Shown in pieces: positions 26,281 through 64,000 of a stretch of DNA of 64,000 nucleotides. This stretch comes from Desulfarculus baarsii DSM 2075. GTDB lineage: Bacteria; Desulfobacterota; Desulfarculia; Desulfarculales; Desulfarculaceae. The stretch's first letter is position 1, and each line of letters begins with the position of its first letter. A program made the position numbers and the translations under genes. Below the pieces are notes generated by a model. That model was given only the letters and a program-made list of their open reading frames with translations, did not search any database and was not told the origin of the DNA. Where the stretch lies: contig NC_014365.1 of the NCBI RefSeq assembly GCF_000143965.1, positions 3,499,501 through 3,563,500 of the forward strand. The letters are read 5' to 3'.

Positions 26281-26874
26281 ATGCCCCGCATGCTGATGAT
26301 CGACAATTACGACTCGTTCACCTTCAACTTGGTGCAGCTTTTCCTGGGCCTGGGCCTGGAGGTGCTGGTGCGCCGCGCCGACAAGATCGCCGTGGCCGAG
26401 GCCGAGGCCCTGGGCGTCGATTACGTGGTGATCAGCCCCGGCCCCAAGGATCCGCGCCACGCCGGGGTCTCGGTGGAGCTGATCGCCGCCCTGCATCAAC
26501 GCCTGCCCATCCTGGGCGTGTGCCTGGGCATGCAGTGCCTCAACGAGGCCTTTGGCGGCCGCACCGAACGCGCGCCCCTGCCGGTCCACGGCAAGACCAG
26601 CCTGGTCCGACACCAGGGCCGGGGCGTTTTCGCCGGGCTGCCCAGCCCCTTTTTGGCCGCGCGCTATCACTCGCTGATGACCGTGCCGGCCGGCCAGGCC
26701 CTGGAGGTGACCGCCGTCAGCGACGACGGGGTGATCATGGGCCTGCAACACCGCCACGGCCTGCTGCACGGCGTGCAGTTTCATCCCGAGAGCTTCTTGA
26801 CCGAGCACGGCCGGGCCCTGGCGGCCAATTTTCTGCGTTTGGGCCCCTGGCGCGACGAGGCCGGCCATGCTTGA
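26281..26874 (+). CDS. pabA: Aminodeoxychorismate synthase glutamine amidotransferase subunit
   Basis: The 197-residue class-I amidotransferase supplies ammonia from glutamine to the chorismate-amination partner. It has MLMIDNYDSFTFNLVQ, the oxyanion strand VVISPGPKDP, the nucleophile in LGVCLGMQCLNEAFGG, and the His/Glu of GVQFHPESF. It overlaps the pabB-pabC gene by 8 bases. That partner carries the PabB-type lysine, so this copy serves p-aminobenzoate rather than tryptophan. The paralogue trpG lies at 56381-56965. Confidence 0.93.
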   Translation: MPRMLMIDNYDSFTFNLVQLFLGLGLEVLVRRADKIAVAEAEALGVDYVVISPGPKDPRHAGVSVELIAALHQRLPILGVCLGMQCLNEAFGGRTERAPLPVHGKTSLVRHQGRGVFAGLPSPFLAARYHSLMTVPAGQALEVTAVSDDGVIMGLQHRHGLLHGVQFHPESFLTEHGRALAANFLRLGPWRDEAGHA

Positions 26875-29131
26875 GGCGATCCTGGCCCGGGCCGGTCGGC
26901 TGGCCGGCGTGCTGACCAAGCCCCTGGAAAGGCCCGAGCCCGTCCTGGACGTGGCCGCCCGCTTCGCCGCCGAGCCGGGAACGGTGCTGTTGCAAAGCGG
27001 CGGCGAGCTGGACTGCGCGCGCCATCATATCCTGGGTCTGCGGCCGTGGCTGACGCTGCGGGGCCGCGCCGACCAGATGAACCTGACCATCGACGGCCAG
27101 AGCCACGAGCTGGGCGTCGAGCCCTTTGACCTGCTGCGGGCCCTGGTCGATCACTTCCAGTTGGCGCCGCCGGCCGATGACGCGCCCCTGCGCGCCGGCC
27201 TGCTGGGCTATCTGGCCTACGACCTCAAGGACCGCCTGGAGCGCCTGCCGCGCACCTCGGTCGATGACCAGAATCTGCCGCACATCCACCTGATCGCGCC
27301 CTCGGTGCTGGTCGTCTTTGACCGCCCAAAAAACCGCGCCGTGGCCCTGGCCCCCTGGCGCGACCGGCCCGGCGGCCGGCAAGAGGCCCGGGCGGCGCTG
27401 GACGGCTTTTTTCGGGCGCTGCAAGGCCCGCCGCCCGCGCCGGGGGCCTTTGCCCGGGGGCCGTGGCGGGCCAACTTCGCGCGCGGGCCCTACATGGCCG
27501 CTGTCGAGCGCATCCGCCAATACATCGCCGCCGGCGACGTCTATCAGGTCAACATGAGCCAGCGCTTCGAGGCCGACTTCAGCGGCGACGCCTTTGCCCT
27601 GCACCGGGCGCTCCACGCGGCCAACCCCGCGCCGTTTTTCGCCTTTGTCAACGCCGGCGATCACCAGATCGTCTGCACCTCGCCCGAGCGCTTTTTGCTC
27701 CAGCGCGGCGACTGGGTCGAGACCAGGCCCATCAAGGGCACCCGGCCGCGCCTGGCCGACCCGGCCCAGGATGAAGCCATGGGCCGCGAGTTGCAAGAAA
27801 GCCCCAAGGACGCCGCCGAACTTTCGATGATCGTCGACCTGCTGCGCAACGACCTGGGCCGCTCCTGCGCCGCCCAAAGCGTGCGCGTCCTGGCCCACAA
27901 GCGCCTGGAGGCCTGGCGCAACGTTTATCATCTGGTCTCGCTGGTCGAGGGTCGTCTGGCCCCGGGCAAGCGCGGCGTGGACTTGCTGGAGGGCTGTTTT
28001 CCCGGCGGCTCCATCACCGGCTGCCCCAAGATCCGCGCCATGGAGATCATCGACGAACTGGAGCCCAACCGCCGTCACATCTACACCGGCTCCATCGGCT
28101 ACATCGGCTTCGACCAAACCATGGACCTGAACATCGCCATCCGCACCGTGACCATCGCCCACGGCCGGGCCAGCTTTGGCGTGGGCGGCGGCGTCGTCTA
28201 CGACTCCGACCCGGCCGCCGAGTACGACGAGACCCTGCACAAGGGCCGCACCCTGCTGGAGGTCATGCCCGGCCCGGGCGAGGCGGACCGATCACGACCC
28301 ATGGTCTGGCTCAACGGCCTGCTCTCGCCGGCCGTGCGGGCCCGCGTCCACGCCGACGACCGGGGCCTGCTGTGGGGCGACGGCTTTTTCGAGACGATCC
28401 GCTTGCAAGACGGCCAAGCCCCGCTGCTGGCGCGGCACCTGGCCCGCTGGGAGCGCGCCTGGCAAGCGCTGGATTTCGGCCCCGTCCCCGATCTGACCTG
28501 GCCCCAGGTCATCGACCAGGTGCTGGCGGCAAACGGCCTGGAGCGGGGCCTGGCCGCCGTGAAAATCTTGGCCACCCGCGGCCGCCTGGCCCAGACCCCG
28601 GCCCTGGGGCCGACCACGCGGCCCACGCTGTTGGTCACCGCGCGGCCCTACGCCCCCCGTGGGGCCGACGGCCTGCGGTTGATCACCTATCCCCAGCCCC
28701 GGCAAAGCCCCCTGGCCGCGCACAAGACGACCAACTATCTATATTATTTGCTGGCCGGCCGCCACGCCGCCCAGGCCGGGGCCGACGAGGCGTTGATCCT
28801 CAACCCCGACGGCGGCGTCAGCGAGACCAACAGCGCCTGCCTGATCGTCATCGAGGGCCGCCGGGCCGTCGCGCCCAGTTCGCCCCATGTCTTGGCCGGG
28901 GTGATGCAACAGCGCCTGCTGGAGGAGCTGAGCGCCTGGGGCTATCAGACGCTCTGGCGCGCGATCCGGCCCGAGGAGCTATTGCGCGCCGATCAGCTCA
29001 TCGTGGCCAACGCCCTGATCGGCCCTTGCCCGGCCCTGAGCCTGGACGGCGCGGCCCTGCCGCAAGGCGACCCCACGCTCTGCCCACGTCTGGCCAGGGC
29101 CGTTTTCGCCGACGACGAACCCAAGACATAA
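26867..29131 (+). CDS. pabB: Fused aminodeoxychorismate synthase component I and aminodeoxychorismate lyase
   Basis: The 754-residue product combines two folate-precursor enzymes. Residues 1 to about 470 are the chorismate-binding PabB: GLLGYLAYDLKDRLERL, YIAAGDVYQVNMSQRF, PIKGTRPR (the Lys that marks PabB against Ala in TrpE), ELSMIVDLLRNDLGR, GCFPGGSITGCPKIRAMEII. After about residue 480, a PLP fold-type IV PabC begins WLNGLL and DDRGLLWGDGFFETIR. Its Schiff-base lysine is in AHKTTNYLYYLLA, followed by LNPDGGVSETNSACL. Together with pabA this gives chorismate to p-aminobenzoate in one operon. Confidence 0.93.
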   Translation: MLEAILARAGRLAGVLTKPLERPEPVLDVAARFAAEPGTVLLQSGGELDCARHHILGLRPWLTLRGRADQMNLTIDGQSHELGVEPFDLLRALVDHFQLAPPADDAPLRAGLLGYLAYDLKDRLERLPRTSVDDQNLPHIHLIAPSVLVVFDRPKNRAVALAPWRDRPGGRQEARAALDGFFRALQGPPPAPGAFARGPWRANFARGPYMAAVERIRQYIAAGDVYQVNMSQRFEADFSGDAFALHRALHAANPAPFFAFVNAGDHQIVCTSPERFLLQRGDWVETRPIKGTRPRLADPAQDEAMGRELQESPKDAAELSMIVDLLRNDLGRSCAAQSVRVLAHKRLEAWRNVYHLVSLVEGRLAPGKRGVDLLEGCFPGGSITGCPKIRAMEIIDELEPNRRHIYTGSIGYIGFDQTMDLNIAIRTVTIAHGRASFGVGGGVVYDSDPAAEYDETLHKGRTLLEVMPGPGEADRSRPMVWLNGLLSPAVRARVHADDRGLLWGDGFFETIRLQDGQAPLLARHLARWERAWQALDFGPVPDLTWPQVIDQVLAANGLERGLAAVKILATRGRLAQTPALGPTTRPTLLVTARPYAPRGADGLRLITYPQPRQSPLAAHKTTNYLYYLLAGRHAAQAGADEALILNPDGGVSETNSACLIVIEGRRAVAPSSPHVLAGVMQQRLLEELSAWGYQTLWRAIRPEELLRADQLIVANALIGPCPALSLDGAALPQGDPTLCPRLARAVFADDEPKT

Positions 29132-54551: not shown

Positions 54552-54731
54552 TGACGCCTCGCAGACGATGGCGATTGACCAAAAATATATTGTGTTATTG
54601 ACATGTTGTATGGTCGAGCCTGATCCGGGCTTGCATTACGTATATTTTAGCAGCAAAAAACCGGCCCGGCCGTCGCTTTTTTTCACAGGCGCCGTGACCA
54701 TTGATATTTGCATACTGTATACAAAAAATCA

Positions 54732-54760
54732 TTGACAGGCCGGCCGCGACCTGGCAAAGT
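54732..54760 (+). promoter_or_regulatory. trp/aro operon promoter
   Basis: TTGACA (54732-54737), 17 bases, CAAAGT (54755-54760). An AT-rich near-palindrome, GCATACTGTATAC (about 54710-54722), precedes the -35 and could be an operator. The rest of 54552-54731 shows no gene. Confidence 0.6.
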
Positions 54761-54794
54761 TTGCTTCATCAGACGATAACGGAGCGTAAGCCAC

Positions 54795-54914
54795 ATGTCC
54801 GCCGCCCAAGCCACAAACGTCATCGCCACTCTGGCGGCCCGCCAACGCGGCGGTTGGCGGCGGTGGCGCGCGCGCGGCGGTGGGTTGCGCGTCGGAGGCC
54901 TCTTGCCAGCCTAG
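54795..54914 (+). CDS. trpL: trp operon leader peptide
   Basis: A 39-codon open frame begins MSAAQATNVIATLAARQRGG, then WRRWRARGGGLRVGG, and ends LLPA. Two tryptophan codons lie at 54855-54857 and 54864-54866, three codons apart, the classical sensor for charged tRNA-Trp. The stop (54912-54914) falls just before the terminator hairpin. It is too short to be found by length, but its position between promoter and terminator upstream of trpE makes it convincing. Confidence 0.85.
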   Translation: MSAAQATNVIATLAARQRGGWRRWRARGGGLRVGGLLPA

Positions 54915-54968
54915 CCTCCGGCATGACAAGCGCGAGTGACCCACCGCCCGGCGGTGGGTTTTTTGTTT
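54876..54968 (+). promoter_or_regulatory. Transcription attenuator (terminator and antiterminator) of the trp/aro operon
   Basis: Terminator: ACCCACCGC (54939-54947), loop CCG, GCGGTGGGT (54951-54959), then a run of six T. Antiterminator: GGCGGTGGGT within the leader ORF (54876-54885) is identical to the 3' arm of the terminator and can pair instead with 54939-54948, just after the Trp codons. A third hairpin, CGGAGGC/GCCTCCG (54893-54899, 54914-54920), lies between. Ribosome stalling at the Trp codons would favour the antiterminator. Confidence 0.85.
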
Positions 54969-54992
54969 CCTTCGCCAAGGGGAGCCGAAAAA

Positions 54993-56380
<1,388 letters not shown>

Positions 56381-56381
<1 letters not shown>

Positions 56382-56965
56382 TGATCCTCATCATCGACAA
56401 CTACGATTCTTTCACCTACAACATCGCCCAGGCCCTGGGCCAACTGGGCAAGGACGTGCGCGTCGAGCGCAACGACGCCATCAGCGCCGCCCAAGTCGGC
56501 CGCCTCGACCCCGAGGCCATCGTCATCTCGCCGGGGCCGGGCAAGCCCGACGACGCCGGGATCAGCATGCAGGTCATCGCCGACTATGCCGGGCGCATTC
56601 CCATCTTGGGCGTCTGCCTGGGCCACCAGTGCATCGGCCAGGCCTTTGGCGGGCTGGTGCGGCGGGCCATCGCGCCGGTGCATGGCAAGCTCAGCCGCAT
56701 CTTTCACGACGGCCAGGGCGTCTTCGCCGGCCTGCGCAACCCCCTGGAGGCCACGCGCTATCACAGCCTGATCGTCACCGAGGAGACCGTGACCACGCCG
56801 CTGGTGGTTTCGGCCTTCACCACCGAGGGCGAGGTGATGGGCCTGCGGGCGGCCGAGCTGATGATCGAGGGCGTGCAGTTTCATCCCGAATCGGCGGCCA
56901 CGCCCCAGGGCCTTGCGCTGCTGCGCAACTTCGTGGAGGCCCACGGCCGGCGGGCGGCGGCCTGA
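56381..56965 (+). CDS. trpG: Anthranilate synthase glutamine amidotransferase
   Basis: The 194-residue amidotransferase supplies ammonia to TrpE. It shows MILIIDNYDSFTYNIAQ, IVISPGPGKPDDAG, the nucleophile in ILGVCLGHQCIGQAFGG and the His/Glu of GVQFHPES. It is distinct from pabA at 26281 (ISPGPGKP rather than ISPGPKDP). There is no phosphoribosyltransferase domain attached, and no trpD follows before aroF. Confidence 0.95.
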
Positions 56966-57075
56966 TCGGCGGCCGGCCACGATAAGTCCTTGAGCCTCGG
57001 GGCGTTCATTGTATTATTGCCCATGGCGCGGGCAAGACGCCCCGCGCCCCATCGACCGAGCGGGAGCGAACGACA

Positions 57076-58116
57076 ATGGTTGTATCCATGCGCGAGGGTT
57101 GCCCCAAGTCCCAGGTCGCCGCGGTGATCGCGGCCATGGAGCGGCGCGGGCTGAAGGTGCGCATCATTTCGCCGGGGCCCAAGGTGGTGCTGGGCGTGGT
57201 GGAGGCGGTCAGCAAGCACTTGACCGACGACCTGCGCTTTGTCCTTTCCGACATGCCCGGCGTCGAGGAGGTCTCGGACTTCCACACCGACTGGAAGCTG
57301 GTCTGGCGCGGGCCCGAGCAGCAGACCTCGGTGGTGCGCATGGGCGGGCGGAGCATCGGCGGACCGGAGCTGATGGTCATCGCCGGCCCCTGCGCGGTGG
57401 AGTGCCGCGAAAACCTGCTGCAAACGGCCCAGGCCGTGGCCGCCAGCGGGGCCGGGGCCATCCGTGGCGGGGCCTTCAAGCCGCGCACCTCGCCATACTC
57501 CTTCCGGGGCCTGGGCGAGGAGGGCCTCAAATACCTGGCCGAGGCCAGGGAGCTGACCGGCCTGCCGGTGGTCACCGAGGTGATGAGCTTCCACGAGGTG
57601 GAGCTGGTGGCCCGCTACGCCGACGTGTTGCAGATCGGGGCGCGCAACATGCAAAACTTCGCCCTGCTGGAGGCCGCCGGTGAGGTGGACAAGCCCGTGC
57701 TCCTGAAGCGGGGCCTGGGCAACACGGTCAAGGAGCTGTTGCTCTGCGCCGAATACATCCTGGCCCGGGGCAATCAGCAGGTCATGTTCTGCGAGCGGGG
57801 CATCCGCACCTTCGAGACCGAGACGCGCAACACCCTCGACCTGGCCGCCGTGCCCATCCTCAAGCAGAATTCCCACCTGCCCGTGGTGGTCGATCCCTCC
57901 CACGCCGCCGGCAAGCGCGAACTGGTGCCAGCCCTGGCCCTGGCCGCCGTGGCCGCCGGGGCCGACGGCCTGATGATCGAGGTCCACCCCGAGCCGGCCA
58001 AGGCCCTTTCCGACGGTCGCCAGACCATCGACCTGCCTGCCTTCGACGATCTGATGAAGCGCCTGGCCCTGGTGGCCCAAGCCGTGGGCAAGACCATCCC
58101 CGGAGTCAACCCGTGA
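57076..58116 (+). CDS. aroF: DAHP synthase (3-deoxy-7-phosphoheptulonate synthase), type I-beta with N-terminal regulatory domain
   Basis: The enzyme makes DAHP from PEP and erythrose 4-phosphate. Residues 1 to about 70 form a ferredoxin-like domain as in the Thermotoga enzyme, known there for Tyr/Phe feedback. The catalytic barrel has [51 protein letters not shown] and [17 protein letters not shown] precedes the ATG. It follows trpG after 110 bases with no terminator seen, and overlaps aroA by four bases. Confidence 0.95.
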
Positions 58117-59378
58117 AGCTTGTCGGCCAACTGACCCCGCCCGGCGACAAATCCATCAGCCACCGCCTGGGCCTTTTATCACTGCTGGCCCAGGGCCGCT
58201 GCGAGGTGGGCGGCTTTTCGCCCAGCGCCGATTGCGCCTCGACCCTGGCCGCCGTGGCCGCCCTCGGCGGTGGCGTCGAGCGGGTGGGCGAGCGGGTGAT
58301 CCTCAGCGGCGCGGCCGGCCGCTTGCGCCCCGGCCAGACCATCGACTGCGGCAACTCGGGCACGACGATGCGCTTTTTGATGGGCCTGCTGGCCGGCGCG
58401 GGCGGCCGTTTCGTCCTCGATGGCGATGAATCGCTGCGCGGCCGGCCCATGGAGCGGGTGGCCGAACCGCTGCGCCGCATGGGCGCGCGGGTCGAGTGCG
58501 CGGCCGGCGGTCGGCCGCCGGTGATCATCCAGGGCGGCGGGTTGCGCGGCGGCCAGTTTGACCTGCCCGTCGCCTCGGCCCAGCTAAAGAGCGCCCTGCT
58601 GCTGGCCGGCCTGCAAGCCGATGGCCCCACCACCGTCAACGAACCGGCCGCCAGCCGCGATCACACCGAGCGCCTGCTGGCCCAGTGGGGGGCCCAAATC
58701 CGCCGCGACGGCCTGAGCTGCACGGTCTGGCCCGGCCTGCTGCGCCTGCCCGCGCAAATCTGGACGCCGGCCGACGCCTCGGCGGCGGCCTTTTTCTGCT
58801 GCGGCGCGGCGATCCTCCCCGGCAGCCGGCTGGTGGCCCAGGGCGTGTTGCTCAACGAAAACCGCCTGGGCTGGCTGCGCGTGCTGGAGCGCATGGGCGG
58901 CTGCGTCGACGTTCGCAGGCAAGGCGACGACCCCGAGCCCTGGGGCGACATCGGCGTGGAGTTTTCGCCCGAGCTGCGCGCCGTGGAAGTCGGCGCGGCC
59001 GAGATAGCCGCCATCATCGATGAAGCGCCGATCCTGGCCCTGACCGCCAGCCAGTGCCACGGCGTCAGTGTCTTTCGCCAGGTGGGCGAGCTGCGCGTCA
59101 AGGAAAGCGACCGCCTGGCGGCGATCATCGGCCAGTTGGGGGCCCTGGGCGCGGACCTGCGGGCCGAGGGCGACGACTTGATCGTGCGCGGCCCCACGCC
59201 GCTGCGTTTGCCCGACGCGCCGCTGAAATCCTTTGGCGACCACCGCATCGCCATGGTCCTGCGCGTGGCCGGCCTGCTGGCCGGCGGCTGGCCACGGATC
59301 GACGACGAGGCCTGCATGGCCATCAGCCACCCGGCCTTCAACGACGATCTGCGGCGGCTGGCCGGCATGGCCTCGTGA
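58113..59378 (+). CDS. aroA: 3-phosphoshikimate 1-carboxyvinyltransferase (EPSP synthase)
   Basis: The 421-residue product starts with GTG at 58113 and has [79 protein letters not shown] and SFGDHRIAM, the full EPSP synthase set. It overlaps both neighbours (GTGA at each end). Confidence 0.96.
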
Positions 59379-60205
59379 GCGCGGAGCGCTTTTATCGCCT
59401 GGGCATCCTGGGCGACGAGCGGGCGCGCAAGTCGCTTTCGCCGCGCATGCACGGCCATGTCCTGGCCAAGCACGGCCTGCAAGGCGTCTACGTCGCCCTG
59501 CCCACCCCGCCGGAGCTTGTCGGCCAGGCCGTGGCCGAAGCCAGGGCCATGGATGGCCTCAACGTCACCGTGCCCCACAAGGCGGCGGTGATCGAGTTTC
59601 TCGACGAGCTTGCGCCCCTGGCCCAGGCCATCGGCGCGGTCAACACCATCATCAACCAGGGCGGGCGGCTGATCGGCGACAACACCGACGCCGGCGGTTT
59701 TCTCGACGCCCTGGCCCACGGCGGCTTCAATCCGTCCGGCAAGACGGCCCTGGTGCTGGGGGCCGGCGGGGCCAGCCGGGCGCTACTCTGGGCGCTGAAA
59801 AGCGCCGGCTGCGCGCGGGTGCTCTTGAGCGCCCGCCGTGACCAGGCGGCCCAAGCCCTGGCCGCGGACTTTGGCGCGCAGGCCCTGGCCTGGGCCGCCA
59901 TCGAGGACGCCTGCCCGGCGGCGGAGCTTCTGGTCAACGCCACGGCGGCCTCCAGCCCGGCCGAGGCGCCCGAGCTGGCCCGGCGCATTCTGGCCCTGCC
60001 CCTGCCGGCCGGCGGATTGACCCTCGACATAAACTATGGTCGGGCCGATAATTTCTGGAAGGCGGCGGCCCTGGCCCGTGATCGGGCCTTCAGCGACGGC
60101 CTGACCATGCTGGCCTTGCAGGCCCGGCGCTCGTTTTATCTGTGGACCGGCCTGGACATCCCGGCGGGGGATTACTTCGAGGCCCTGGAAGACTATCATG
60201 CCTGA
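59375..60205 (+). CDS. aroE: Shikimate dehydrogenase
   Basis: The 276-residue enzyme reduces 3-dehydroshikimate with NADPH. It has KSLSPRMHGHVLAKHG (shikimate binding), DGLNVTVPHKAAVIEFLDEL, NTDAGGFLDAL and the Rossmann turn VLGAGGASRALLWAL. Its GTG start overlaps the aroA stop (59375-59378), and its end overlaps the aroK-aroB fusion by eight bases. Confidence 0.94.
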   Translation: MSAERFYRLGILGDERARKSLSPRMHGHVLAKHGLQGVYVALPTPPELVGQAVAEARAMDGLNVTVPHKAAVIEFLDELAPLAQAIGAVNTIINQGGRLIGDNTDAGGFLDALAHGGFNPSGKTALVLGAGGASRALLWALKSAGCARVLLSARRDQAAQALAADFGAQALAWAAIEDACPAAELLVNATAASSPAEAPELARRILALPLPAGGLTLDINYGRADNFWKAAALARDRAFSDGLTMLALQARRSFYLWTGLDIPAGDYFEALEDYHA

Positions 60206-61760
60206 AAATATCTTTCTGACCGGCTTCATGGGCTCGGGCAAGTCCACCGTGGGCGCGCTGTTGGCCAGGGCCATGGGCCGCAAGTTCGTTGACATGGACA
60301 GTGAGCTGACGCGCCACTTTGGCCAGCCCATCGCCGAGGTCTTTGCCCAGCGCGGCGAGGCGGCCTTCCGTCAGGCCGAAAGCGCCCTGCTGGCCCGGCT
60401 GAGCCGGAGGCGGGGCCTGGTGGCGGCCACCGGCGGAGGCGTGGCGGCCAACCCGGCCAACCGCGCGCTGATGCGGGCCGACGGCGGGCGCATCGTCTGG
60501 CTGCGGGCCGGGCTGGAGCACTGCGCGCGCCGCCTTGGCCCGCTGGAGACGGCCGCGCGGCCCCTGTGGCGCGACGCGGCGGCGGTCGAGCGCCTGTTTG
60601 CCCAGCGCCAGGAGGCCTACGCCGACTGCGACCACGCCGTCGACACCGAGGGCCTGCTGCCCCAGCAAGCCGCCGCCGCCGTGCTGGCGGCCATCACGCC
60701 CCAGCGCGTCTTTGACGCCGGCCTGGAGGGCAAGCGTTGCCCGGTCACGGCCACCTTCCAGGCCCCGGCCAAACTGGCCGAGTTGTGCGCCGGCCGGCGG
60801 GTGATCGTCCTCAGCGAAAGCCGCGTGGCCGGCCTGCACCTGGCGCGGCTGTGCGCCGGGCTGCAACCGGCCGCCCAAGTCATCCTGCCGCCGGGCGAGG
60901 CCACCAAGACCCTGGCCGGCGCGCGCCGCGTTTATGACGCGCTGCTTGCGGCCAACGTCGAGCGCGGCGATCTGCTGGTGGCCATCGGCGGCGGGATGAT
61001 CACCGACCTGGGGGCCTTTGTCGCCGCCACCTACAAGCGGGGCATGGATTTCATTTTGGTCAGCACCAGCTTGCTGGGCTGCGTGGACGCCTCGGTGGGC
61101 GGCAAGGCGGCGGTGAACCTGCCGGCGGCCAAAAACATCGTGGGCCTGTTCACCGCGCCCCTGGCGGTGGTGCTCGATCTGTGGGCCCTGTCGACCTTGC
61201 CCCGGGCCCAGCGCGCCGAGGGCCTGGCCGAGGCCTACAAGACCGGGCTGATCGGCCGCCCCGAGCTGTTCGATCTGGTTGACCAGCGCCTGGAGGCCCT
61301 TTTGGCCGGCGATCTGGGCGGTCTGGCGGCCTGCGCCCATCTGGCCGCCGAGACCAAGGCCCGCGTGGTCAGCGCCGATTTCCGCGAAAAAGGCCCGCGC
61401 CGCGTGCTCAACCTGGGCCACACCTACGGCCACGCCGTGGAGAGCTGGCACAACTATAAGATCAGCCACGGCCGGGCGGTGGCCGTGGGCATGATCGTCG
61501 CCGCGCGCCTTTCGCTGGAGCGGGGCCTGCTGGCCGCCGATCTGGCCCAGCGGGTGATCGATGTCTGCGCCCGGCTGCGCGGCCGGCCGGTGGCCCTGCC
61601 GCCGGTGGAGCAGGCCTGGCCGATCATGCAAAACGACAAGAAAAACGCCGGCGGCAAGGTCGTCTTCGTGCTGCTGGAGGGCGTGGGCCGGCCGCTGGTG
61701 GTCGACGACCTGACGCCCGACGAGCTGGCCAGGGCCCTGGCCGCACTGGAGGCCGTCTGA
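60198..61760 (+). CDS. aroKB: Fused shikimate kinase and 3-dehydroquinate synthase
   Basis: One 520-residue frame encodes two shikimate enzymes. Residues 1 to about 170 are shikimate kinase: IFLTGFMGSGKSTVGALLARAMG (P-loop), DMDSELTRHFG, FRQAESALLARL, ATGGGVA and RPLW. From about 175 on is 3-dehydroquinate synthase: LPPGEATKTL, AIGGGMITDLGAFVAATYKRGM, STSLLGCVDASVGGKAAVN, AKNIVGLF, and the metal ligands in EGLAEAYKTG and NLGHTYGHAVE. The fusion is in the order kinase then synthase, opposite to the pathway. Confidence 0.94.
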   Translation: MPENIFLTGFMGSGKSTVGALLARAMGRKFVDMDSELTRHFGQPIAEVFAQRGEAAFRQAESALLARLSRRRGLVAATGGGVAANPANRALMRADGGRIVWLRAGLEHCARRLGPLETAARPLWRDAAAVERLFAQRQEAYADCDHAVDTEGLLPQQAAAAVLAAITPQRVFDAGLEGKRCPVTATFQAPAKLAELCAGRRVIVLSESRVAGLHLARLCAGLQPAAQVILPPGEATKTLAGARRVYDALLAANVERGDLLVAIGGGMITDLGAFVAATYKRGMDFILVSTSLLGCVDASVGGKAAVNLPAAKNIVGLFTAPLAVVLDLWALSTLPRAQRAEGLAEAYKTGLIGRPELFDLVDQRLEALLAGDLGGLAACAHLAAETKARVVSADFREKGPRRVLNLGHTYGHAVESWHNYKISHGRAVAVGMIVAARLSLERGLLAADLAQRVIDVCARLRGRPVALPPVEQAWPIMQNDKKNAGGKVVFVLLEGVGRPLVVDDLTPDELARALAALEAV

Positions 61761-62830
61761 TGTTTGGCAGCTTCATGGGCCAGATTTTGCGCATCGCCAC
61801 CTTTGGCGAAAGCCACGGCCCGGCCGTGGGCGTGGTCATCGACGGCCTGCCCGCCGGCCTGGCCATCGACGAGACCCTGATCCAGCGCGACCTGGATCGC
61901 CGCCGGCCGGGGACCAGCCCCTACGTCACCCAGCGCAAGGAAGCCGACACGGCGCAAATCCTCTCGGGCCTGGCCGATGGCCGCACCCTGGGCACGCCGC
62001 TGTGCGTGGTGGTGCACAACACCGACGCCCGCTCCAAGGACTATGGCGAGTTGCTTGGTGTCTTTCGGCCCGGCCACGCCGATTTCGCCTATCACGCCAA
62101 GTACGGCGCGCCGCCCCAGCCCGGCGGGGGCGCCGGCCGCTCCTCGGGCCGCGAGACCGTGGGCCGCGTGGCCGCCGGGGCCGTGGCCCGGGCCATCCTG
62201 GCCCCGCTGGGCGTGGTCATCCGCGCCTGCACCGCGGCCGTGGGCCAGGTGCGCGCCGCGCGCCTGGACTGGGATTTCGCCGCGCAAGACCCCCTGCGCT
62301 GCCCCGACCCCGACGCGGCCCCGGCCATGGCCGAGCGGATCGCCCAAGCCAGGGCCGAGGGCGACAGCGTGGGCGGCCTGGTGCGCCTGGTCGTCAGCGG
62401 CGCGCCGGCCGGCCTGGGCGATCCGGTCTTTGGCAAGCTCGACGCCCGCCTGGGCGGGGCGATGTTTTCCATCGGCGGGGTCAAGGGCGTGGAGATCGGC
62501 GCGGGCTTTGCCGTGGCCCAGCGGAGCGGCGGCCAGAACAACGACGCCATGGACGAAAATGGCTTTCGCGGCAACAACGCCGGCGGCGTGCTGGGCGGCA
62601 TTTCCACCGGCCAGGAGATCACCATGCTCCTGGCCGTCAAGCCCACCCCCAGCATCGGCCGGCCCCAACAAACCATCGGCCTGGATGGCCAACCACGCCT
62701 CATCCAGATCAAGGGCCGCCACGACCCCTGCCTCTGCCCGCGCATCGCGCCGGTGGCCGAGGCCATGGCCGCCCTGGTCCTGGCCGACGCCTACCTGGCC
62801 CAGCGGGCCCTTGCCGGAGCGGCGCGATGA
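61760..62830 (+). CDS. aroC: Chorismate synthase
   Basis: The 356-residue FMN-dependent enzyme makes chorismate from EPSP. It has ATFGESHGPAVGVVIDGLPAG, RRRPGTSPYVTQRKE, HADFAYHAKYG, GGGAGRSSGRETVGRVAAGAVA and NNDAMDENGFRGNNAGGVLGGIS. It shares one base with aroKB (TGATG) and four with aroQ. Confidence 0.96.
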   Translation: MFGSFMGQILRIATFGESHGPAVGVVIDGLPAGLAIDETLIQRDLDRRRPGTSPYVTQRKEADTAQILSGLADGRTLGTPLCVVVHNTDARSKDYGELLGVFRPGHADFAYHAKYGAPPQPGGGAGRSSGRETVGRVAAGAVARAILAPLGVVIRACTAAVGQVRAARLDWDFAAQDPLRCPDPDAAPAMAERIAQARAEGDSVGGLVRLVVSGAPAGLGDPVFGKLDARLGGAMFSIGGVKGVEIGAGFAVAQRSGGQNNDAMDENGFRGNNAGGVLGGISTGQEITMLLAVKPTPSIGRPQQTIGLDGQPRLIQIKGRHDPCLCPRIAPVAEAMAALVLADAYLAQRALAGAAR

Positions 62831-63261
62831 AAATACTTTTGCTCAACGGCCCCAACCTGAACATGCTCGGCCAGCGCGAACCCGGCCTCTACGGCAGCCA
62901 GACCCTGGCCGACATCGAGGCCCAGACCGGGGCCCTGGCCGCCCAGCACGGCCTGGAGCTGGAGTGCCTGCAATCCAACCACGAGGGCGTGCTGGTCGAT
63001 GCCATCCAGCGGGCCGGCCGCGAGATGGCCGGAGTCATCCTCAACGCCGGGGCCTACACCCACACCTCGGTGGCCCTGCGCGACGCCGTGCTTTCCTGCG
63101 CCGCGCCGGTGCTGGAGGTGCACCTGACCAACCCCCACGCCCGCGAGAGCTTCCGCCAGGTTTCGCTGCTCTCGGGGGCGGCCAAGGGCGTCATCGCCGG
63201 TTTCGGGGCCGAATCCTACGCCCTGGCCGTGCTCTGGCTGGCCCGCAACCTGCCCCGCTAA
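62827..63261 (+). CDS. aroQ: Type II 3-dehydroquinate dehydratase
   Basis: The 144-residue dodecameric-type enzyme shows ILLLNGPNLNMLGQREPGLYG (catalytic Tyr), CLQSNHEGVLVDAIQ, LNAGAYTHTSVALRDAV and EVHLTNPHARESFR (catalytic His). It completes the full set of seven shikimate steps in the operon (aroF, aroB, aroQ, aroE, aroK, aroA, aroC). Confidence 0.95.
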   Translation: MKILLLNGPNLNMLGQREPGLYGSQTLADIEAQTGALAAQHGLELECLQSNHEGVLVDAIQRAGREMAGVILNAGAYTHTSVALRDAVLSCAAPVLEVHLTNPHARESFRQVSLLSGAAKGVIAGFGAESYALAVLWLARNLPR

Positions 63262-63279: not shown

Positions 63280-64000
63280 ATGGCCATGGTCGAACTGCGG
63301 CGGATGGACAACCGGTTCCAGGCCGACCTGTGGCGCGACGCCTTGCTGGGCCGGGGCGTGGACTGCCGCTTGCGCGGTTTTCACGATACGGCCTACGACG
63401 GGCTCTACGTCACGCAAAAGGGCTTTGCCATGCTTTTGGTCGACGAGGCCCAACTGGAGCTGGCCCGCCAGATCGACGCCGAATTGCTGGCCCTGGAGGC
63501 CCCGCCGGCGGCCGATGTTCTGGCCCTGGCCCAGGCCATCGAGCACACCCTGCTGGGCGCGGCGGCCAGCCAGGCCGATCTGGAGGGCCACGTGGCCCAG
63601 TGCCTGGAGCACGGCTTTGGCGCGGCCTGCCTGAGCCCCTGGCTGGTGGGCCGGGCGGCCCGGCTGCTGGAAGGCTCGGCGGTGACGCTGTGCTCGGTGG
63701 TGGGCTTTCCGCTGGGAATCCAGACCAGGGCCGGCAAGCTGCAAGAGGCCCTGGAGCTGGCCGGGCTGGGCGCGGCCGAGCTGGACGTGGTGATCAACCG
63801 GGGCCTGGTGGCCTCCGACAGGCTGGATGAGGCCGTCGACGAGATCGCCGCCATTGTCGCGGCCGTGGCGCCGCTGGTGGTCAAGGTGATCCTGGAGACC
63901 TCGGAACTCGGCCCGGAGCTGACCGCCCGCGTGGCCCGGGCCATGGCCCACAGCGGGGCCGCCTTCCTCAAAACCGGCACCGGCCACTTTGGCCCGGCCA
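63280..64000 (+). CDS. DUF2007 domain fused to a deoxyribose-phosphate aldolase-like (DeoC) domain, partial
   Basis: The frame starts at ATG 63280 behind AAAGGAG, 18 bases after aroQ, and is still open after 240 codons at the window end. Residues 4-66 look like DUF2007 (VELRRMDNRFQADLWRDALLGRGVDCRLRG), a small signal-transducing domain. Residues 80-240 resemble class I DeoC aldolases: VTLCSVVGFPLGIQTRAGKLQEAL, ELDVVINRG (D169), VVKVILET (Schiff-base K202) and FLKTGTGHFGPA (K231, 29 residues later as in short DeoCs). So the aldolase active site is intact. Why it is joined to DUF2007 and placed in a shikimate operon is unknown. Confidence 0.8.
   Translation, partial: MAMVELRRMDNRFQADLWRDALLGRGVDCRLRGFHDTAYDGLYVTQKGFAMLLVDEAQLELARQIDAELLALEAPPAADVLALAQAIEHTLLGAAASQADLEGHVAQCLEHGFGAACLSPWLVGRAARLLEGSAVTLCSVVGFPLGIQTRAGKLQEALELAGLGAAELDVVINRGLVASDRLDEAVDEIAAIVAAVAPLVVKVILETSELGPELTARVARAMAHSGAAFLKTGTGHFGPA

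Follow-up and report, generated by a model that had tools for sequence, protein, structure and literature searches.

The aromatic genes of Desulfarculus baarsii DSM 2075 raise the question of whether a tryptophan attenuator can govern the supply of chorismate. In the 64,000-nucleotide stretch of contig NC_014365.1 analyzed here (the window), trpE is preceded by a region resembling a classical trp leader and is followed by trpG and the genes of the shikimate pathway. We consider it very probable that positions 54732-54992 contain a trpL-type attenuator, that the operon belongs to a dispersed regulon whose parts have separate leaders, and that a regulator recognizing GTATAC palindromes probably acts at two Trp promoters.

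Family models identify the genes, all on the plus strand, as trpE (anthranilate synthase component I; 54993-56381), trpG (the amidotransferase component; 56381-56965), DAHP synthase 1 (DAHPS1; 57076-58116), aroA (EPSP synthase; 58113-59378), aroE (shikimate dehydrogenase; 59372-60205, start approximate), an aroK-aroB fusion (shikimate kinase and dehydroquinate synthase; 60198-61760), aroC (chorismate synthase; 61760-62830) and aroQ (type II dehydroquinase; 62827-63261). All seven shikimate activities are thus encoded on six genes after trpE-trpG, in the place of trpDCFBA, as the initial annotation had proposed, and trpDCFBA is located elsewhere on the contig. The best model for trpE is trpE_most, with a score below its curated cut-off, as is likewise the case in nine of 14 control genomes. 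Pfam domains mark 26281-29131 of the window as a pabA-like gene followed by a pabB-pabC-like fusion, and a genome search recovers two TrpE-like genes only, trpE and pabBC. With pabA-pabBC set apart and no third TrpE-like gene recovered, the sole evident anthranilate synthase is trpEG. The open reading frame following aroQ (63280-64000 of the window) has a weak, partial-length match to DeoC/LacD aldolases and may belong to the operon.

The leader peptide with its WRRW motif, the terminator with six T residues and the segment matching the terminator 3' arm that had been reported here are all present between 54795 and 54964 on the plus strand. The leader open reading frame (54795-54914) encodes the 39-residue peptide MSAAQATNVIATLAARQRGGWRRWRARGGGLRVGGLLPA*, with tryptophans at residues 21 and 24 specified by the control codons UGG CGG CGG UGG (54855-54866); these two non-adjacent Trp codons are the only ones, and Phe and Tyr codons are absent. 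Segment 2, the antiterminator 5' arm (GGCGGTGGGT; 54876-54885), is equal to the terminator 3' arm, begins 5 nt past the last Trp codon as counted in the duplex test below, and is followed by the stop codon 24 nt beyond it. Segment 3 (ACCCACCGCC; 54939-54948) provides both the terminator 5' arm and the antiterminator 3' arm, and segment 4 (54950-54964) comprises the terminator 3' arm and the T run. The terminator arms (54939-54948 and 54950-54959) are 100% complementary over 10 nt, six T at 54959-54964 close the structure 28 nt upstream of the trpE start, and the region of the 3' arm at 54945-54960 matches the leader segment 54871-54886 at 94% over 16 nt. A candidate promoter (54732-54760, plus strand) consists of TTGACA (54732-54737), a 17-nt spacer and a weak -10, CAAAGT (54755-54760). 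A consensus promoter scan did not report this TTGACA-17-CAAAGT site at 54732-54760. TTGACA is present 38-75 nt upstream of the leader start in all 16 trpE leaders examined, the -10 elements of which were compared by eye only.

Two Trp codons among 39 are weak evidence when taken alone; the leader evidence is strong because a Trp leader recurs in relatives. A TrpE search of 21 genomes of the order gave matches in 16, with only a PabB-like gene seen in G016. A Trp-rich leader reading frame and a CCCACCG...CGGTGGG terminator are found in D. baarsii and in each of the 14 relatives whose trpE 5' end could be read, and a further relative missed by the TrpE search but found through its terminator (G017, locus L201) has the same arrangement. 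The terminator pattern is present in 14 of 20 family genomes, with no match to the reversed control in any of the 20, and it occurs once in D. baarsii, at trpE. A MAFFT alignment (A2) places the D. baarsii terminator 5' arm one column off, so column pairs were not counted and complementarity was tested through sequence anchors instead, using 15 sequences (D. baarsii and 14 relatives) with dinucleotide shuffles as the null. The segment 2:3 duplex is stronger than in the shuffles (Fisher combined p = 5e-12 for the 15 sequences, uncorrected for kinship); in D. baarsii the corresponding p is below 1/300. Own pairings of segments 2 and 3 also exceed in strength those obtained by re-dealing the segments between genomes (p = 0.0044). 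Two of the 15 fail the test, L012 and L021 (p = 0.56), and five more fall between 0.027 and 0.08; the L012 test used a late Trp codon as its anchor, and the value is -19.2 with the right one. Segment 2 starts 8-10 nt past the last Trp codon in 11 of the 15 (3 nt in L013 and L014; L012 wrongly anchored) and ends 19 nt upstream of the stop codon in nine of 15, with the terminator beginning 24-31 nt past the leader stop codon.

A ribosome-mediated attenuator of the trpL type before trpE is well supported by these features: a predicted short reading frame with clustered Trp codons before a Trp gene in D. baarsii and 14 of 14 relatives, an intrinsic terminator between leader and first gene, and a competing antiterminator downstream of the Trp codons, which is non-significant singly in L012 and L021. 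The gene order also recurs. Among 13 relatives' stretches examined, 12 extend past trpG, and DAHPS1 is the next gene in every one; the series trpE-trpG-DAHPS1-aroA-aroE-aroKB-aroC-aroQ-DAHPS2 is complete in the nine with long enough stretches, eight of which reach trpD. A TrpE scan of named genomes gives at least 80 distant loci (39-47% identity), which served only as an outgroup. Among the matches listed, one of 80, in a Chloroflexi MAG (L053), has trpEG-DAHPS-aro clustered (matches to aroA, aroE, aroC and aroKB), and our script found no Trp leader there.

Folding, suggested earlier as a check, shows the D. baarsii leader to be structured beyond 200 of 200 dinucleotide shuffles (z = -3.4). 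We folded it with masks standing for the ribosome, either as the full leader or as segments 1-3 only, corresponding to RNA polymerase just past segment 3. In the full leader the terminator is predicted at 0.998 without a ribosome and remains favored at 0.993 in the equilibrium fold with a ribosome on codon 21; a ribosome on codon 24 gives 0.58 for the antiterminator and 0.34 for the terminator. With polymerase just past segment 3 the antiterminator is at 0.88-0.99 in five of six stall settings, falling to 0.41 in the sixth (the widest footprint, on codon 24), and it is also at 0.984 without a ribosome and 0.987 with one at the stop codon, a position that leaves segment 2 uncovered. Equilibrium folds thus fail to separate the fed and starved states with polymerase at segment 3, and kinetics must decide, upstream RNA taking segment 2 back once a moving ribosome has gone by. 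In many relatives a CACC just after the Trp codons could pair with the GGTG of segment 2 as a local hairpin, and this CACC would be covered by a stalled ribosome.

We infer the following course of events, from ribosome stalling and the direction of the response to the extent of the transcript and the regulator. When charged tRNA-Trp is scarce the ribosome would stall at UGG codon 21 or 24, leaving segment 2 free to pair with segment 3 as it emerges, and polymerase would continue into trpEG-DAHPS1-aroA-aroE-aroKB-aroC-aroQ. When tryptophan is plentiful the ribosome would pass, segment 2 could refold with upstream RNA, segment 3 would pair with segment 4, and transcription would end at the T run. 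The operon would be one module of a dispersed aromatic regulon whose other modules have their own leaders (Trp for trpDCFBA, Phe/Tyr for DAHPS2-pheA-tyrA), and a putative DNA-binding regulator probably acts through GTATAC palindromes at both Trp promoters.

Could the terminator be constitutive, or controlled directly by a protein or tRNA in a TRAP-like, TrpR-like or T-box manner, with the leader reading frame incidental? A palindrome is present at most Trp promoters, so a protein regulator probably acts there too, but Trp codons are clustered in all 14 relatives read and segment 2 exceeds the shuffles across the set of 15 sequences. TrpR (PF01371) has no match in the D. baarsii genome, E. coli and B. 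subtilis being those that match among 14 control genomes, and no T-box structure is found by Rfam at E up to 5 in 54600-55100. On these TrpR, T-box and leader results we regard this alternative as very improbable. Rfam gives no matches in the whole window at the gathering threshold, and with E up to 5 there are four sub-threshold matches in 54600-55100 and four at the loci of seven of the 14 relatives. One in each set overlaps a leader, RF02631 (Hrs13; 54895-54965) at 14.7 bits where 52 are required and RF00519 on the L017 leader at 23.8 where 41 are required; these matches were treated as chance.

The palindrome GCATACTGTATAC at 54710-54722, a candidate operator, is one of four places in the genome within one mismatch of GTATACNGTATAC, compared with one for the reversed control. 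The four are the trpE promoter, the trpD leader, a site some 170 nt upstream of a TrpB-like gene, and a fourth where no aromatic gene was recognized. At L032:1501-1513 the sequence is GTATACTGTGTAC, and the TrpB-like PLP enzyme about 170 nt downstream is a candidate third member of the Trp regulon. TGTATAC is found near ten of 16 trpE and seven of nine trpD leaders (0.06 and 0.03 expected) and near none of ten DAHPS2 leaders. Exact TTGTATACAAA occurs in six of ten genomes and is absent from D. baarsii; its reversed controls give one match in G009 and three in G011. Besides trp sites, it is found at four places without a recognized aromatic gene (L155, L147, L158 and L150, where most neighbors are unnamed) and at two Phe/Tyr leaders in relatives (L146 and L149), so the palindrome is not strictly a Trp-side element. 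These sites suggest a repressor of a family other than TrpR. At L146:1500-2712 (G003) a protein resembling a metallo-beta-lactamase fold is encoded after a Phe/Tyr leader, a hairpin resembling a terminator, and TTGTATACAAA; the fold was read from its sequence, family searches returned no match, and such a protein would be an odd target for aromatic control.

The remaining modules are dispersed in D. baarsii. The contig also carries the trpDCFBA genes, which occupy ~726.7-731.2 kb of the minus strand as against 3554 kb for the trpE operon, and their leader, MTNTTRDMAWRNWRVRWRRRGRGPCWV, has four Trp codons followed by a terminator; leader, terminator and an exact GTATACCGTATAC lie at L006:11141-11400 (~731.2 kb, minus strand). 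A TetR-type gene (L006 11552-12253) is divergently oriented upstream of this leader and is, by its position, one candidate for the regulator at the palindromes. The split of trpEG from trpDCFBA resembles that in Sinorhizobium meliloti, and by analogy with the action of rnTrpL on trpDC there, as described in PMC7298713, the terminated leader RNA (~200 nt) or its peptide might act in trans on trpDCFBA; with a leader and a terminator already present before trpDCFBA, a trans link is unnecessary, and we think such an action improbable. DAHPS2 is found with pheA and tyrA behind a leader containing YYFSYFYF, and in this leader region (L159:6500-6800, ~548 kb, minus strand) there are two successive hairpins, each with a T run a few bases later. 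A third DAHP-synthase-family gene is 67-71% identical to genes of relatives, of which that at L149 is named DAHP synthase by NCBIfam, and no leader was seen by eye upstream of the D. baarsii gene. A fourth match to PF00793, beside a CTP-synthase-like reading frame, is probably KDO8P synthase, both identities having been read from sequence.

In the relatives these modules adjoin one another, in the order Trp leader-trpEG-aro, Phe/Tyr leader-DAHPS2, and one or two Trp leaders-trpD, with pheA and tyrA between DAHPS2 and trpD in the one relative examined (L049). A Phe/Tyr leader and terminator precede DAHPS2 in nine of nine relatives and Trp leaders precede trpD in eight of eight, as a tandem pair in five. 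TTGACA is found before nine of ten DAHPS2 leaders, and TTGACC or TTGACG before eight of nine trpD leaders, so these modules may be separate transcription units. The antiterminator tests are weaker for these leaders than for trpE. For DAHPS2, p is at most 0.02 in L038, L040, L041 and L050, 0.05-0.065 in L045, L046 and L049, 0.265 in L043, 0.18 in L044 and 0.285 in D. baarsii. First trpD leaders give p below 0.05 in L040, L041 and L045, 0.16-0.61 in L043, L044, L046, L049 and L050, and 0.065 in D. baarsii, the start having been taken upstream of the likely one for D. baarsii and for the first leaders of L043, L044 and L050; second trpD leaders give 0.000 in L045 and 0.055-0.355 in the other four. 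The values for L149 and L146 are 0.000 and 0.145. We also read 12 further loci with a trpE-type terminator, two of which are opposite strands of one place. In seven of them, each from a different relative, a Phe/Tyr leader stands before DAHPS3; in another (L189, relative G011) a WWWW leader stands before trpC-trpB; one is the trpE of G017; and L185 has neither leader nor recognized gene. It therefore seems that this leader-terminator unit was copied and given new codons.

What the trpE leaders sense may also differ between genomes. Of 14 relatives, 13 have a Phe or Tyr codon no more than two codons ahead of the Trp run, and with D. baarsii and L201 added the count for the family is 14 of 16 leaders; in other families of the class this is so in three of 18 (p = 9e-5, uncorrected for kinship), the two residues before the run having been read by hand. 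No WW-run leader was accepted for L138, L143, L144, L162, L163, L164, L169, L171, L173, L175 and L176, which were left out of the 18 (in L163 the WW reading frame overlaps the terminator), and L131, from another family with YF before WWWW and trpD near trpE, runs against the contrast and is uncounted. In other families trpE-trpG is followed directly by trpD at 13 of 13 loci (L133-L145), ten of them among the 18. At L131 and L132, from a further family of this class, trpE is followed by trpD and by trpD-trpC, respectively, and the short stretches read there show no match to trpG. The codons directly before the Trp run suggest a sensor of all three aromatic amino acids in the relatives, in line with an operon whose chorismate serves all three. 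On the other hand, the AT-rich stretch before the Trp run may serve another role, and stalling on codons farther from segment 2 may work less well.

Whether tryptophan sets chorismate synthesis depends on the transcript beyond trpG. The aroB and aroC genes are single-copy in the genome and both are in this operon, and chorismate therefore requires either this transcript or an internal promoter; folate synthesis has its own pabA-pabBC in the window and still requires chorismate. To that extent, and unless an internal promoter acts, the proposal that tryptophan supply sets chorismate synthesis is supported, but for tryptophan alone it is too strong, because DAHPS2-pheA-tyrA with its own Phe/Tyr leader and the third DAHP synthase without a visible leader are other entry routes. 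The attenuator might mainly control trpEG, with the aro genes expressed steadily from an internal promoter at ~57020 and the Trp signal barely reaching chorismate. This is compatible with the attenuator itself and competes only with the claim on the aro genes. The shikimate genes are required even when tryptophan is present, and a possible promoter, TTGAGC-16-TATTAT (56990-57017, plus strand), lies in the 110-nt gap between trpG and DAHPS1, where one had been suspected; six promoter-like sites occur in 8.7 kb (both strands) versus 0.6 expected from shuffles. The site matches the consensus at only nine of 12 positions, however, and the identical scan finds none in the corresponding gaps of 12 of 12 relatives. 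We regard steady internal expression as possible but somewhat doubtful.

For the family as a whole we tentatively propose, at a little short of even confidence, a set of ribosome attenuators matched to the branches of the pathway: trpEG with the shikimate block would answer to a tri-aromatic (Phe, Tyr and Trp) leader, DAHPS2-pheA-tyrA and DAHPS3 to Phe/Tyr leaders, and trpD to one Trp leader or a tandem pair. Leader codons would track downstream products, at least some leaders would be copied leader-terminator units with changed codons, and in D. baarsii, where the modules lie apart, the first leader would retain Trp alone of the three amino acids.

In E. coli, trpL precedes trpE; its leader peptide contains Trp codons, helix 2:3 is the alternative to helix 3:4, the terminator has a T run, and a ribosome at the stop codon covers segment 2. 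The D. baarsii leader is alike in its Trp leader peptide, alternative helices, T-run terminator and position before trpE. It differs in that it precedes trpEG and seven shikimate activities and not trpDCBA, its Trp codons are split by two Arg codons, its stop codon lies 24 nt beyond segment 2 such that a ribosome there leaves segment 2 uncovered, and no TrpR was found in the genome. In the aromatic supraoperon of Bacillus subtilis, trp and aro genes are contiguous under the control of TRAP; the relatives described here share this contiguity but have ribosome-type leaders. According to the accessible part of PMC11802643, citing Neshat et al. 2014, Corynebacterium glutamicum has a Trp leader (trpL) before trpEGDCFBA and a Phe-Tyr-Phe leader (aroR) before DAHP synthase, and so resembles D. 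baarsii in combining Trp and Phe/Tyr leaders in one organism. As far as that account goes, the differences are that here the Trp leader stands before the shikimate genes, trpD is preceded by a separate leader (two in five of eight relatives), and Phe, Tyr and Trp occur together in the trpE leaders of most relatives. S. meliloti, as described in PMC7298713, is alike in having a trpLE(G) attenuator with trpDC in a second operon, on which rnTrpL acts in trans; here a leader and terminator also precede the second operon, and aro genes follow trpEG. Single Trp leaders (E. coli, C. glutamicum) and a Phe/Tyr leader before DAHP synthase (from the same part of PMC11802643) are thus already known, and the arrangement as a whole is not described in the titles or abstract openings among the matches listed from the open literature. 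It extends the textbook Trp attenuator from the branch of one amino acid to the common precursor pathway, and the relatives provide a natural series in which leader codons, attenuator number and operon content vary, making it testable whether leader codons evolve to match downstream products and how control over the parts is maintained in a trp operon interrupted by other genes.
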